Positions 13,222 to 55,044 of a stretch of DNA of 64,000 bases are shown in pieces (within the stretch, counting starts at the first letter, position 1; each line of letters opens with the position of its first letter). The stretch comes from Actinotalea sp. JY-7876. Its GTDB lineage: Bacteria; Actinomycetota; Actinomycetes; Actinomycetales; Cellulomonadaceae. The stretch spans positions 2,728,001-2,792,000 of the forward strand of contig NZ_CP059493.1 of assembly GCF_014042015.1 (NCBI RefSeq). Reading direction: 5' to 3'. Both the position numbers and the translations under genes were made by a program. The notes under the pieces are model-generated. The model saw only the letters and a program-made list of their open reading frames with translations. It ran no database searches and had not been told where the DNA came from.

Positions 13222-13344
13222 GCATGTCCGGCCCTGGACCGGCGACGACTGGTCCTGTGGACAACGCCGCCGGTGGGCGCGGCCGCGGCAGCCTGCTCTG
13301 GCGGCCCGCACGGACCGCGTAACCGGGGCGGCGGGGGGAACCGG

Positions 13345-14373
13345 GTGGCGGCACGCGTGGGAACCTCGTCGGCACCCGAGCGGCGGCTCCGCGGGCGGCT
13401 GCCCGTCCTGTGGCGCGGCGCCGACGAGGTCCAGGTGGGCACCGACCCGCGCTGGGCGCTCGGCGTCTCCGGGCTGCCGCCCGCCGCCGCGCGGGCGCTG
13501 AGCGAGCTCCCGGCCGGCGCCGACCGGCGCGCCGTCGTCACGACCCTGCGGCGTGCCGGGGCGCCCGAGGCGGCGACCTCGGCCGTCGTGGCGCACCTGA
13601 CCTCGGCGGAGCTGCTGGTGGCGTGCCCGCCGCCCGGAGCCTCGCCGGACGAGCAGGCCTGGGCCCTCCTGGCCCACGACGCCGACGGCGCGCGGGTGCT
13701 GCGCCGTCGCGCACGCGCCGTCGTGGGGGTACGCGGCCTGGGCCGGGTCGGCACCGGCGTCGCCGCCGGCCTGGCCGGCGCCGGCGTGGGCACCCTCGTG
13801 CTCGAGGACGCCGGCCACGTGACCCGGCACGACGTGGGGGCGAGCGGCCTGCGCGACCAGGACGTGGGGCGTCCGCGCGCCGACGCGGTCGCCCGGCTGC
13901 TGCGCGACGTCGCGCCCGACGTCCGCACGTCCGACGGCGAGCCGGACCTCGTCGTGGTGGTCGAGCACCACGTCGCCGACCCCGTCGGCTACGCCCTGCT
14001 GCACGAGGCGGGCCGGAGCCACCTCTCGGTCGTCGTGCGCGAGGCGTCGGCGCTCGTCGGGCCGCTGGTCGTGCCGGGCAGGACGGGGTGCCTGCGCTGC
14101 GTCGACCTCGAGCGCACCGCGCGTGACGACCGCTGGCCGACGCTCGCCGCGCAGCTCGCCCGGGCGCCGGCCGCCCCGGAGGAGACCACCCTCGCGCTGG
14201 CCACCGCCGCGCTCGCCACCGCGCAGGCGCTCGCCCACGTCGACGGGCGGCCCGTGACGGTCCACGACGCGTCGCTCCTGCTCCGGCTGCCGGACGTGCT
14301 GCCCCACGTCGTGGCCTGGCCGCGACGCCACGAGTGCGGCTGCACCGCGCCCGACCCGGTGGCGACCGGCTGA
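13345..14373 (+). CDS. ThiF/E1-like protein, TOMM leader-binding type (orphan)
   Basis: A roughly 342-residue protein. The N-terminal 90 residues (LRGRLPVLWRGADEVQVGTDP onward) resemble the winged-helix precursor-binding region of azoline-forming (TOMM) cyclodehydratase C proteins. The rest is an E1/ThiF Rossmann fold (VVGVRGLGRVGTGVAAGLAGAGVGTL). The adenylation-site residues look degraded: the usual D-x-D and N-L-x-R-Q are replaced by EDAG and SGLRDQ. Zinc-type Cys pairs remain (GCLRC, ECGC). GTG 13345 sits behind a G-rich ribosome site. No YcaO, oxidase or precursor peptide is nearby, matching the stand-alone homologue next to whiB7 in mycobacteria (Rv3196). Role unknown. Confidence 0.75.
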   Translation: MAARVGTSSAPERRLRGRLPVLWRGADEVQVGTDPRWALGVSGLPPAAARALSELPAGADRRAVVTTLRRAGAPEAATSAVVAHLTSAELLVACPPPGASPDEQAWALLAHDADGARVLRRRARAVVGVRGLGRVGTGVAAGLAGAGVGTLVLEDAGHVTRHDVGASGLRDQDVGRPRADAVARLLRDVAPDVRTSDGEPDLVVVVEHHVADPVGYALLHEAGRSHLSVVVREASALVGPLVVPGRTGCLRCVDLERTARDDRWPTLAAQLARAPAAPEETTLALATAALATAQALAHVDGRPVTVHDASLLLRLPDVLPHVVAWPRRHECGCTAPDPVATG

Positions 14374-14386
14374 GCCCGGGACGCCG

Positions 14387-14416
14387 AGGCCCCCGGCAGC
14401 GTGCTGCCGGGGGCCT
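14387..14416. terminator. Bidirectional terminator between ThiF-like gene and whiB7
   Basis: AGGCCCCCGGC (from 14387) pairs with GCCGGGGGCCT (to 14416) around a short GC-rich loop in the 63-base convergent gap, so it can end both transcripts. Confidence 0.75.
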
Positions 14417-14436
14417 GGCTCGGAGGGAGCGGGTGG

Positions 14437-14805
14437 TCAGGCCGCCGAGGTCTCGTCCTTGCGCGGACGGCCACGGCCGCGTTTGCGCGGCACGACGACG
14501 CCGCCGACGAAGACCTCACCACCCCAGACGCCCCAGGGCTCCCGGCGGGCGATCGCACCCTCCAGGCACCCGGCGCGCAAGGGGCACTGCCGGCACAGCG
14601 CCTTGGCCGCCTCCACCTGCGCGGTCGACTCGGCGAACCAGAGCTCGGCGTCGTTCTCGCGGCACGGGATGAGGGTGGCGACCAGCTGGTCGAAGGTCTC
14701 GGCGTCGGTGGGAGCCGTCGGGCTCGGTCGGTCGGTACGGCGGGTCTCGGGCCACGGGCCGGATCCGCTGTCGTTCAGGGTGTCGAGCAGCGAGGTGAGC
14801 CGCAC
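14437..14805 (-). CDS. whiB7: WhiB7-type iron-sulfur transcriptional regulator
   Basis: A 122-residue WhiB protein. The four cluster-binding cysteines are C48, C71, C74 and C80, followed by GVWGG (92-96), the sigma-A contact turn. The C-terminal RKRGRGRPRK is an AT-hook, the feature that separates WhiB7 from other WhiB proteins. WhiB7 activates intrinsic antibiotic-resistance genes, including its own, when ribosomes are inhibited. The GTG at 14805 has AGGAGG six bases upstream. The long leader holds a small ORF and an intrinsic terminator, and the genomic place beside uvrD2 matches mycobacterial whiB7. Confidence 0.95.
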   Translation of the reverse strand: MRLTSLLDTLNDSGSGPWPETRRTDRPSPTAPTDAETFDQLVATLIPCRENDAELWFAESTAQVEAAKALCRQCPLRAGCLEGAIARREPWGVWGGEVFVGGVVVPRKRGRGRPRKDETSAA

Positions 14806-14899
14806 GGTGGTCCTCCTGGTCCGGAGTCTGATCAGCTGGTCGTTCGGTGCGGGGACCGTGGACCTTCGCCGACCGCCCGGAGCGGAAGGACATGAAGAA

Positions 14900-14930
14900 G
14901 GCCGCGGGTCCCGAGATGGACTCCGCGGCC
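14900..14930 (-). terminator. Attenuator terminator in the whiB7 leader
   Basis: Reading the minus strand, GGCCGCGG-(A)-GTCC pairs with GGAC-CCGCGGCC (12 bp, one bulged base, 6-nt loop), followed at once by TTCTTCATGTCCTT. It lies 18 bases past the upstream ORF's stop and 94 bases before whiB7, so it would abort leader transcripts. It is the only hairpin in the window with a convincing U-rich tail. Confidence 0.85.
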
Positions 14931-14948
14931 GGTGAGGCGTCTGGTCGA

Positions 14949-15131
14949 TCAGACCAGGCATGCCCCCGGGTGGGAGTCGGGCTCGGTGGACGGGGTGCGC
15001 CCGCGAAGTCGCCGGCCGAGGCCGCCGGCAGCGCGCACACCTGTCCCCTGGATCGGGGCGAAGGCGGGCGCGGCGGGACGCGGCAGAGAGCGCTCGGCGA
15101 GATCGAACGTCACCACGGTCATCGTGTCCAT
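14949..15131 (-). CDS. whiB7 leader peptide (upstream ORF)
   Basis: A 60-codon reading frame beginning MDTMTVVTFDLAERSL inside the whiB7 leader. AGGAGG lies 11 bases before the ATG at 15131; a second ATG three codons later is possible. Its stop (14949-14951) lies just before the attenuator hairpin. In mycobacteria and Streptomyces a leader ORF links ribosome inhibition to whiB7 read-through; the same layout supports this role here. The peptide sequence itself probably matters less than its translation. No known protein domain. Confidence 0.72.
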   Translation of the reverse strand: MDTMTVVTFDLAERSLPRPAAPAFAPIQGTGVRAAGGLGRRLRGRTPSTEPDSHPGACLV

Positions 15132-15199
15132 CAGTGCACCCACCTCCTCTCGACTCAGGCCCCGGCCTCTTCGGCCGTGCCTCCAACAAGGACTCGAGA

Positions 15200-15238
15200 A
15201 CCCTAGAGCCGCGCCGCGAGGCGCCACAACCGATTATT
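15200..15238 (-). promoter_or_regulatory. whiB7 autoregulated promoter
   Basis: On the minus strand: AATAAT (15238-15233), three bases CGG, -35 TTGTGG (15229-15224), an 18-bp spacer, -10 TAGGGT (15205-15200). An A/T-rich patch immediately upstream of a GGTTGTGG-like -35 is the known target of the WhiB7-sigma-A complex in mycobacteria. It is placed about 70 bases upstream of the leader ORF. Confidence 0.8.
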
Positions 15239-15283
15239 CCCACGAGTTTCGACGACCTTCCGCCACCCGTGCGGCGGGCGCCG

Positions 15284-17278
15284 TCAGCGGTGCCGCGCGA
15301 CGATCTCCAGCAGGGCCGGACCGTACTTGTCGATCTTGGCCGGGCCGATGCCGCGCACCCGGGACAGCTCGCCCACAGTCGACGGTCGCAGCTCGGCGAT
15401 GCCCGCCAGCGTCGCGTCGGCGAGCACGGTCCAGACGGGACGGTCCGCCTCGGCCGCGGCTGCCTCGCGCCACTCGCGCAGCGCCGCGACGAGCACCGGG
15501 TCCTGGTCACCGAGCGCGCCGGTCGCCCGGAGGGCCGCGGCACCCGTGCGGCGGCGCGCGTCGCCGTCGGGCCAGATGCCGTCGAGGAAGCGCGTCCGGC
15601 GGCGGCCCGCGCGTCCGCCCGGGTGCCGCGCGCGCGCGAAGCTCAGCTCGAGCTGCTCGCGGGCCCGGGTGACGCCGACGTACAGCAGGCGGCGCTCCTC
15701 CGCGACGGCCTCGTCCGTCTCGGCGAGCGAGATCGGCATCAGGCCCTCGCTGAGCCCGGCGAGGAACACCGCGTCCCACTCCAGGCCCTTGGCCGCGTGC
15801 AGGGACGCGAGCGTCACCCCGTCCACCGCGGGTGCGTGCTGGGCGGCGGCGCGCTCGTCGAGCTCGGCGACGAGGTCGACGAGCGAGGGGGTGCGGCCCT
15901 GCGGAGCCGCGGCGGCCAGCTCGTCGGCGAGCGCGACGAGCGCCTGCAGCGAGTCCCACCGCTCGCGCACCGCGCCGCGCGCGGCCGGCGGGTCGGGGCT
16001 CCACCCGGCGGAGGCCAGGACGTCGCGCACGGCCTCGGGCATCGGGATGTCGGCCGTCGAGCGCGCGGCGCCGCGGAGCAGCACGAGCGCGTCGCGCACC
16101 TCCTTGCGGCCGAAGAACCGCTCGCCGCCCCGCACGAGGTACCCGATGCCAGCGTCGGCCATGGCCTGCTCGAAGGCCTCCGACTGCGCGTTCGTCCGGT
16201 ACAGGACGGCGATCTCGCGCGCCGGTGTGCCGGCGGCGATCAGGCGGCCCACCCGGGCGGCCACGCCGCGGGCCTCGGCCTCGTCGTCGTCGTACGCGGT
16301 GAAGCCGACCGGCGGCCCGGACGGGCGCTGGGCGATGAGCTCCAGCCCGCTGCCGCGGCGGCGGCCGGTCGAGGCGAGGAGCCGGTTCGCGACGTCGACG
16401 ACCTGCGGCGTGGAGCGGTAGTCGCGCACCAGGCGCACGACCGTGGCGCCCGCGTACCGCTGACCGAAGGTGAGCAGGTGGTGCGGCGTCGCGCCCGTGA
16501 AGGAGTAGATGGTCTGGCTCGGGTCCCCGACGACGCAGATCTCGGTGCGTCCCCCCAGCCACTGGTCGAGCAGGTACTGCTGCGCGGGCGAGACGTCCTG
16601 GTACTCGTCGACGACGAAGTGGCGGTACTGCGCGCGCACCGTCTCGGCGATGTCGCGCCGGCTCTCGAGCACGTGGCCGAGCATCGTCAGGACGTCCTCG
16701 AAGTCGATGACACCCCGGGCGTCCTTCGCGTCCTCGTACGCGGCGATGAGGCGGGCCACGGTGGCGCGGTCGTAGCCCGCGGGGGCGGGCCGCCCGGTCG
16801 CGGACGCGGCGCGCACGTAGTCGTCGGCCGCGACGAGGCTCACCTTGGACCACTCGATCTCCGAGGCCAGGTCCCGCACGCTGAGCCGGTCGACGCCCAG
16901 GCCGAGGCGCGTCGCGGCCTCGGCGACGACGGGCGCCTTGTGCTCGAGGATCCGCGGCGGCGCCCCGCCGACCACCTGGGGCCAGAAGAACGACAGCTGC
17001 CGCAGCGCGGCGGCGTGGAACGTGCGGGCCTGGACCCCGGCGACGCCGAGCCCGCGCAGCCGGGTGCGCATCTCGCCCGCGGCGCGCGCGGTGAACGTCA
17101 CCGCGAGGACGCTCGAGGGCGCGTAGGTGCCGGTGCGGACGCCGTAGGCGATGCGGTGGGTGATGGCACGGGTCTTGCCCGTGCCGGCGCCCGCGAGCAC
17201 GCACACGGGACCGGTGAGCGCGAGGGCCACCTCTCGCTGGTCGGGGTCGAGGGCGTCGAGGAGCTGGTCGGCGGACAT
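15284..17278 (-). CDS. uvrD2: UvrD2-type superfamily 1 DNA helicase with HRDC domain
   Basis: A 664-residue ATP-dependent 3'-5' helicase. Motif I is GAGTGKTRAITH (near residue 33), motif II DEYQD, and motif III follows as GDPSQTIYSF. The later motifs include VTLASLHAAKGLEWDAVF and VGVTRAR. The last 80 residues form an HRDC domain (LVAALREWREAAA to GIGPAKIDKYG), characteristic of actinobacterial UvrD2. ATG 17278 was chosen because MSADQLLDALDPDQREVALA aligns with family N-termini; the frame is open further upstream. It lies between whiB7 and the mycoredoxin gene as in M. tuberculosis. Confidence 0.93.
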   Translation of the reverse strand: MSADQLLDALDPDQREVALALTGPVCVLAGAGTGKTRAITHRIAYGVRTGTYAPSSVLAVTFTARAAGEMRTRLRGLGVAGVQARTFHAAALRQLSFFWPQVVGGAPPRILEHKAPVVAEAATRLGLGVDRLSVRDLASEIEWSKVSLVAADDYVRAASATGRPAPAGYDRATVARLIAAYEDAKDARGVIDFEDVLTMLGHVLESRRDIAETVRAQYRHFVVDEYQDVSPAQQYLLDQWLGGRTEICVVGDPSQTIYSFTGATPHHLLTFGQRYAGATVVRLVRDYRSTPQVVDVANRLLASTGRRRGSGLELIAQRPSGPPVGFTAYDDDEAEARGVAARVGRLIAAGTPAREIAVLYRTNAQSEAFEQAMADAGIGYLVRGGERFFGRKEVRDALVLLRGAARSTADIPMPEAVRDVLASAGWSPDPPAARGAVRERWDSLQALVALADELAAAAPQGRTPSLVDLVAELDERAAAQHAPAVDGVTLASLHAAKGLEWDAVFLAGLSEGLMPISLAETDEAVAEERRLLYVGVTRAREQLELSFARARHPGGRAGRRRTRFLDGIWPDGDARRRTGAAALRATGALGDQDPVLVAALREWREAAAAEADRPVWTVLADATLAGIAELRPSTVGELSRVRGIGPAKIDKYGPALLEIVARHR

Positions 17279-17426
17279 CACCCGCAGTCTCTCAGCCGCC
17301 GCCGACACGTCCCGACGCGAACGGGAAGCCCCGGGCGGCGATGATGGTTGGCGGGAGGGACGGTGCACGCGCCGGCCCGGAGCGGCCGGCCCCCGCCGAG
17401 CCGGACAGCGACGAGAAGGAGAACCG

Positions 17427-17693
17427 ATGACCGACGCGACAGCACTGCCGGCCGAGGGCACCGTGACGATGTTCACCACGACGTGGTGCGGCTACTGCCG
17501 GCGCCTGAAGTCGCAGATGGACTCCGCGGGCGTGCGCTACTCCGAGGTCAACATCGAGGAGACGCCCGGCGCGGCCGAGTTCGTCGAGAAGGTCAACGGC
17601 GGCAACCAGACGGTGCCGACCCTGCTGTTCCCGGACGGCAGCGCCGCCACGAACCCCTCCCTCGCCGAGGTGCAGCAGCGCCTCGCCGTCTGA
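17427..17693 (+). CDS. mrx1: Mycoredoxin (glutaredoxin-like)
   Basis: An 88-residue thioredoxin-fold protein with redox motif TWCGYC near residue 20 and the cis-Pro segment QTVPTLLF. The N-G-G-N before the cis-Pro is typical of mycoredoxin, which reduces mycothiol-protein disulfides. ATG 17427 follows GAAGGAG. It is divergent from uvrD2 and converges on nudC (5 bases between stops), the same order as Rv3198A-Rv3199c. Confidence 0.93.
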   Translation: MTDATALPAEGTVTMFTTTWCGYCRRLKSQMDSAGVRYSEVNIEETPGAAEFVEKVNGGNQTVPTLLFPDGSAATNPSLAEVQQRLAV

Positions 17694-54906: not shown

Positions 54907-55044
54907 GTGCGTGGTGGCCCCGGCTCGGTCCGGGCACGCACACGACAGGGTGTGGTGACCCGGGGCCCAGGCGTACGACCCGAAGTCTGATGCTTGCGTC
55001 GCTCCCTGGTGGTGACCCACCTGCGCCAGTCGCGACCCGGGTCA
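54907..55044 (-). promoter_or_regulatory. ZTP (pfl) riboswitch controlling glyA-folD
   Basis: On the minus strand the aptamer runs 55044 to 54956, closed by TGACCCGGG / CCCGGGTCA. It contains the conserved pfl strings GGGTCGCGACTGGCG (55038-55024), a GGTGGG/CACC helix with AGGGAGCGACG, and the 3' CGCCTGGGC (54973-54965). These match the motif that binds ZTP/ZMP, the purine intermediates that accumulate when 10-formyl-THF is low. A second hairpin follows (GTGCGTG/CACGCAC arms at 54941-54935 and 54913-54907, inner CCCGG/CCGGG) with no U-tail; it may be the expression platform. The ribosome binding site lies just after it. Confidence 0.88.

Follow-up and report, generated by a model that had tools for sequence, protein, structure and literature searches.

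A probable ribosome-mediated transcription attenuator ahead of whiB7 in Actinotalea sp. JY-7876, with a candidate antiterminator hairpin over the uORF stop codon

The leader of whiB7 in Actinotalea sp. JY-7876 is very probably a ribosome-mediated transcription attenuator of the whiB7/wblC type, in which the tail of an upstream ORF (uORF) would pair with the 5′ arm of an intrinsic terminator to build an antiterminator of three helices, P1, P2 and P3. The locus analysed lies on the minus strand of the window, a stretch of 64,000 nt within a single-contig genome of 3.55 Mb. Comparison of leaders supplies the parts, their conservation, their pairing and its compensatory changes. The system is of a known kind, and the present work is mainly confirmation in a new genus. 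An earlier sequence-only reading had proposed a translation-sensing whiB7 switch at this place. That proposal is well supported by anatomy, conservation and the literature, but the specific 8-bp helix that it named is not. All of the elements it described were located on the minus strand, at the positions it had given them.

The gene order on the minus strand is uvrD2-like helicase, promoter, uORF, terminator and whiB7; whiB7 follows uvrD2 in Mycobacterium and Streptomyces too. The features are as follows.

15284-17479, minus strand: uvrD2-like helicase, with UvrD and HRDC domains.
15200..15238, minus strand: WhiB7-type promoter, with AATAAT at 15238-15233, a 3-nt gap, the −35 element TTGTGG at 15229-15224, an 18-nt spacer and the −10 element TAGGGT at 15205-15200.
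15180..15193, minus strand: mini-hairpin GTCC-loop-GGA, lying immediately behind the −10, where the transcript is expected to begin.
14949..15131, minus strand: uORF of 60 codons, from ATG at 15131 to TGA at 14949, with AGGAGG at 15148-15143.
15036..15050, minus strand: mid-uORF block CAGGGGACAGGTGTG, encoding QGTGV, then R.
14891..14930, minus strand: intrinsic terminator, with its stem at 14930-14900, a bulged A at 14922 and the tail UUCUUCAUG.
14812..14817, minus strand: ribosome site of whiB7, AGGAGG, as read from the sequence.
14437..14805, minus strand: whiB7, with a GTG start at 14805 and 122 aa, including four Cys, GVWGGE and the AT-hook RGRGRPRK.

As had been claimed, the gene behind the terminator is whiB7, starting with GTG at 14805. 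Its product has a WhiB domain (Pfam match, 2.5e-15), four cysteines, a G[VI]WGG turn and a C-terminal AT-hook, and its best solved relatives are the WhiB7 chains 7kif (3.8e-26) and 7kug (1.7e-19). There are four WhiB-domain genes in the genome; by eye, the RGRP AT-hook is missing from the other three frames. A search of named genome contigs gave the closest named whiB7 matches in Cellulomonas, and NCBIfam gave no family name for the protein. The identity of the gene as WhiB7 is secure. In Rfam, the leader has no family match at gathering score. Convergent with whiB7 is the gene of a ThiF-domain protein (13273-14373, plus strand), which weakly resembles a TOMM leader-peptide-binding model, with a score under the cut-off. 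The window also carries a ZMP/ZTP riboswitch at 54958-55043 on the minus strand (54.9 bits).

Leaders for comparison came from a search of 150 family genomes (29 relative loci), from 80 more stretches and from 80 named genome contigs. With the window this made 190 leaders; removal of 13 duplicates left 177, of which 119 form a family set and 58 are distant. The family set is defined by search origin and not by tree, its counts include the window, and its members are related genomes, so that these counts overstate the independent evidence. Left out were L055, which has no terminator, and L021, L032 and L168, which have no callable uORF (L168 is a cut contig). Alignment A1 holds the 112 distinct segments among the 115 leaders with a callable uORF, and A2 the 54 of these 112 retained at a similarity of <0.86.

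The sequence-only reading had seen an A/T patch and the −35 element of a WhiB7-type promoter, and both are present. The patch lies 3 bp upstream of the −35, and the spacer falls within 16–19 bp, which, as far as sequence alone can say, is the layout described in passages of PMC7157823; an AT-hook and an A/T patch upstream of the −35 figure in passages of PMC3905903 and PMC7157823. With its spacing fixed, the pattern is unique, having a single match in the whole 3.55-Mb genome, at whiB7, and still one when one mismatch is allowed. A spacer one base shorter gave no match in the genome, and the strict pattern (0 or 1 mismatch) found no further WhiB7 target promoters genome-wide. Within the window, AATAAT-NN-GTTGTGG with at most 2 mismatches matches once, versus 0.00 times expected by chance; a consensus scan of 14300-15700 found no sigma-70 promoter. 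The same layout was recognised in 60 of the 115 leaders (window included), and in all 60 at least 4 of the 6 places ahead of the −35 are A/T. Transcription would start just after the −10. There, the 5′ mini-hairpin recurs in 48 of these 60 leaders, where mononucleotide shuffles would lead one to expect 1.8; a second hairpin, GCC-GRRR-GGC, follows in 37 of the 60 (2.9 expected). Pairing of the 5′ hairpin with the mid-uORF block was considered and rejected by eye; the 5′ element also occurs in genera that lack the block.

A Rho-independent terminator lies between the uORF and whiB7. It had been described as U-tailed and as beginning 18 bases after the uORF stop, and here the position and the strong stem hold: 12 bp with one bulged A, beginning 18 nt past the stop, at −26.1 kcal/mol and a z of −5.23. 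The tail, however, is just moderately U-rich, and a consensus terminator scan of 14300-15700 gave no match. The pattern of the 5′ arm is found in 118 of 119 family leaders.

The 60-codon uORF with its own AGGAGG was likewise read correctly, and places a uORF with a Shine-Dalgarno (SD) sequence between promoter and terminator. A uORF with a ribosome site is callable in 115 of 118 leaders (95 ATG and 20 GTG starts; 34 to 97 codons). The calling itself required a stop within 8 to 75 nt of the terminator; in 115/115 leaders the first stop in the uORF frame falls 8–30 nt before it, compared with 1 and 11 when the two remaining frames are read from that start. In uORFs, G+C by codon position is 0.649, 0.593 and 0.806, the third being raised, as in translated sequence. 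Among 38 non-overlapping pairs of related uORFs that are 70–97% identical, substitutions by codon position run 0.116/0.130/0.116, as against 0.052/0.031/0.146 for whiB7 in the same pairs. Since the codon positions of the uORF evolve equally, unlike those of whiB7, it seems to be translation of the uORF that is sensed, and not the peptide. Indels in pairs of related uORFs are multiples of three in 30 of 69 cases; frame-keeping is visible in the position of the stop and not in the indels. The flat codon-position rates reveal no amino-acid constraint across the full uORF and argue for a general sensor of slow translation. Since evolution has preserved the start and the stop of the uORF but not its peptide, the leader would, most simply, gauge the timely arrival of the ribosome at the uORF end. 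In L021 and L032, the uORF seems to end about 90 nt earlier, outside the stop hairpin, with the antiterminator word and the terminator arm present; L120, which has the same compensated word, has the usual stop position.

An unlikely alternative to such a general sensor is an arrest-peptide attenuator of the erm-leader type, in which certain drugs would stall the ribosome at a defined uORF peptide and thereby set the RNA fold. The mid-uORF block would suit this: a QGxxV[SPF]-like peptide (QGTGVP-like) occurs in 37 of 115 uORFs versus 5.1 expected, and at the nucleotide level CAGGGG-N6-GTGTGYCC is found in 25 of 115 leaders, in frame in 25/25, and also in 10 of 58 distant loci (e.g. L069, L072, L074 and L075), some perhaps by chance. 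In addition, a passage of PMC12121999 calls drug stalling of ribosomes within the whiB7 uORF untested. By the peptide pattern, however, the block is missing from 78 of the 115; across its entire span the uORF has neither amino-acid constraint nor a conserved peptide, and its length ranges widely. The window's own QGTGVR falls outside the 37; its block fits a looser pattern present in 40 of 115, one of these spurious (at the start codon). The Gly codon of the block has G in third place in 85% of 40 rows. The block puts an SD-like AGGGG about 6 nt ahead of an in-frame GTG, perhaps a pause or an internal start. Given the absence of amino-acid constraint over the whole uORF, the sensor appears to be ribosome progress, and not a drug-specific arrest peptide.

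How the position of the ribosome could be passed on to the terminator is suggested by pairing between the uORF tail and the terminator itself. The predicted helices are these.

14973..14978, minus strand: 5′ strand of P1, the uORF-tail word GACTCC, which pairs with 14924-14919 (6 bp in the window).
14919..14924, minus strand: 3′ strand of P1, GGAGTC, inside the 5′ arm of the terminator.
14962..14969, minus strand: middle helix P2, paired with 14938-14929, imperfect, from the MFE fold of the nascent RNA (−30.8 kcal/mol).
14941..14957, minus strand: stop-codon hairpin P3, CTGGTC-TGATC-GACCAG, with 14957-14952 paired to 14946-14941 and the uORF stop TGA in the loop.

GACTCCg(c), the word in the tail of the uORF, is complementary to GCGGAGTC in the terminator 5′ arm. 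Of 118 leaders, 102 have a P1 of 6 or more contiguous Watson-Crick pairs (26.5 expected) and 63 have one of 8 or more (1.8 expected); the 6-bp word is missing from 16 of the 118, and P1 of the window is just 6 bp. The CTCC core of the word stands 25 nt (54/99) or 28 nt (24/99) before the uORF stop. It is read as Asp-Ser in 89 of 99 leaders and in another reading frame in 10 of 99, which implies that the RNA, rather than the peptide, is constrained. Compensatory forms of P1 are GACTCCAC/GTGGAGTC in 3 leaders, GACTCCGT/ACGGAGTC in 1 and GCTCCG(C)/(G)CGGAGC in 2. Matched changes were seen at three P1 positions (G-C for A-U, A-U for G-C and U-A for C-G); every one of them appears in a single row out of 54. 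The best stem near the uORF stop runs to 5 bp or more in 100 of 115 leaders (17.9 expected) and to 6 bp or more in 60 of 115 (4.8 expected), with paired sequences of many kinds; its loop holds the stop codon in 63 of the 115, and the codon overlaps the stem in 30 and lies outside it in 22. P2 is more weakly conserved, with 62.6% of its cells paired versus 86.2% for P1. When RNA ending before the 3′ arm was folded one sequence at a time, 110 of 115 leaders formed the composite antiterminator hairpin, where shuffles gave 63.6; in 90 of the 115 the stop codon stood at the apical loop as well, where shuffles gave 25.4. Together, these results point to a candidate antiterminator formed by the uORF tail and the terminator 5′ arm and enclosing the stop-codon hairpin, a predicted and conserved structure that overlaps both uORF and terminator.

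Other folding and alignment results run contrary to this picture. Of the 52 eligible leaders, 40 were folded whole at equilibrium and without any ribosome; the terminator is favoured in 38 of them. This implies that antitermination must be kinetic, with the antiterminator forming first. It could also mean that the terminator is constitutive and the uORF incidental, whiB7 being controlled at its promoter alone or from another start site. We consider this highly improbable, strong as the terminator is, for the start, frame and stop position of the uORF are conserved, as are P1 and P3, and attenuation is described for the same leader in other actinobacteria in passages of the papers cited below. 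Returning to the attenuator, the window is the sole leader of the 40 whose whole-leader fold favours the antiterminator, with a probability of 0.99 without a ribosome; this falls to 0.42 when a ribosome occupies the start, to 0.02 when it stands at codon 20 and to 0.07 when it is at the stop. With the ribosome held at codon 20, the terminator has a probability of 0.98, and in a shorter fold of the window it has 0.997. P1 of the window goes from 0.60 when free to 0.04 with a ribosome masked at the stop. Among relatives (the 100 of 115 leaders whose word has at least 6 bp), the same mask takes the mean P1 probability from 0.90 to 0.71, and at least 0.5 remains in 74 of 100. In the modelled window, P1 and P2 occupy all but scattered bases of the 5′ arm, which would presumably slow displacement.

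On the 54-row MAFFT alignment, RNAalifold returned no antiterminator and three trivial pairs. In the same alignment, two-sided changes occur in 6 pairs versus 3.1 in shuffles (2/500 reach it), and the covariation score is 0.121 versus 0.113 (25/500). The share of paired cells, 76.4% versus 76.1% in shuffles (104/500), is no better than in shuffles because the terminator arm barely varies; slid controls reach at most 45.7%. As support for the antiterminator, then, the pair counts are mixed.

The sequence-only reading had assigned the switch to a different helix, in which GATCAGAC at the ribosome site of whiB7 is the partner of the uORF stop region and a terminating ribosome controls the switch through these 8 bp. 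The octamers GTCTGATC (14954-14947) and GATCAGAC (14833-14826) are indeed exact complements, but chance is enough to account for this: 122 of 300 mononucleotide shuffles yield a helix of 8 bp or more joining the uORF region to the part of the leader that follows the terminator. Comparing the octamer at each uORF stop with the last 70 nt before whiB7 (2 of 115 leaders were dropped for too little sequence), we find that the helix can form in 3 of 113 leaders (window included, G-U allowed) versus 0.98 expected, and with one mismatch in 20 of 113 versus 20.4 expected. Relatives, whose pairing had been named as the check, do not keep it. In the folded leader of the window, its probability is 0 and the stop region sits in the local hairpin P3 at about 0.99. 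The 8-bp complementarity is a chance match, and we give control through it almost no credence. The idea that a ribosome at the uORF end blocks an alternative helix is probably right, with other partners, namely the uORF tail and the terminator 5′ arm, closed over the stop-codon hairpin.

Beyond the family set, a terminator was recognised in 52 of 59 distant or leftover actinobacterial loci, the 7 without one including L055. In 25 of these 52, the upstream region can form 8 bp or more with the 5′ side of the terminator (2.3 expected). The words are different ones in other genera, for example GCCTGGAG/CTCCAGGC in Nocardioides and, at 7 bp, CCCTGGA/TCCAGGG in Streptomyces. One of the distant loci, L060, carries the family word. 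Among the leaders that reach just 5 bp are L104 and L111 from Streptomyces, three from Nocardia and one from Mycobacterium; a second Mycobacterium leader has no recognised terminator. The geometry is widespread; it is the sequence that changes.

We propose that transcription would begin at a WhiB7-dependent, autoregulated promoter. Ribosomes moving at full speed would cover the uORF tail and then sit at the stop codon in the apical loop of P3, preventing the antiterminator, so that the terminator (14930-14900) would form and RNA synthesis end ahead of whiB7. If ribosomes are slow or stalled earlier, as under a drug, GACTCC would be free as the 5′ arm of the terminator emerges; it could then pair with GGAGTC and complete the long P1-P2-P3 hairpin that spans the stop codon, letting polymerase continue into whiB7. 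WhiB7 would then stimulate its own promoter. A fuller version of this proposal holds that the uORF is a peptide-independent meter of ribosome progress, for which nothing but start, open frame and stop position matters; that the antiterminator is a single long hairpin with the stop codon in its apical loop, opened by the arriving ribosome; and that lineages swap pairing words while the geometry is kept. We regard this version as evenly poised between right and wrong.

In the trp attenuator, the position of the ribosome on the leader ORF decides the RNA fold, and in erm leaders antibiotic-slowed ribosomes favour an antiterminator. The ilvB1 attenuator resembles the whiB7 leader in that, according to a passage of PMC13236596, ribosome position on the leader ORF selects between two RNA folds. 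Inspection by eye shows no stretch in which a single regulatory codon is repeated; in this the leader differs from the ilvB1 and trp attenuators, as it does in lacking a conserved peptide. The Streptomyces ARE-ABCF leaders are5sc and tiaA, as portrayed in parts of PMC12421871, are alike in that antibiotic-slowed ribosomes favour the antiterminator; their uORFs are very short (MLV and MRS; MVGDDDISG) and stalling is at the start codon, whereas here there are 60 codons and the stop lies in the antiterminator loop. Closest are the whiB7/wblC uORF attenuators of Mycobacterium and Streptomyces (Lee, Lee and Roe 2022; Burian and Thompson 2018, both as represented in papers citing them). Passages of PMC4128351 describe a whiB7 leader with a uORF, attenuation and an intrinsic terminator behind the uORF, and one in PMC10727445 an antiterminator built from overlapping uORF and terminator sequence; the review PMC11550727, in the part concerned, presents the attenuation model. 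The present leader shares with those of Mycobacterium and Streptomyces, as far as these excerpts describe them, the A/T-patch promoter, the long leader, the uORF with its SD sequence, the intrinsic terminator and, as predicted here, the overlapping antiterminator. It differs from other whiB7/wblC leaders in its word, GACTCCGC/GCGGAGTC here and of the CCTGGAG type in many Nocardioides and several Streptomyces leaders tested.

To this known system, the comparative data add testable structure, and they bear on the question of ribosome stalling by drugs inside the whiB7 uORF. If the uORF does act as a meter of ribosome progress, this would account for the induction of whiB7 by many unrelated drugs as well as by amino-acid starvation.
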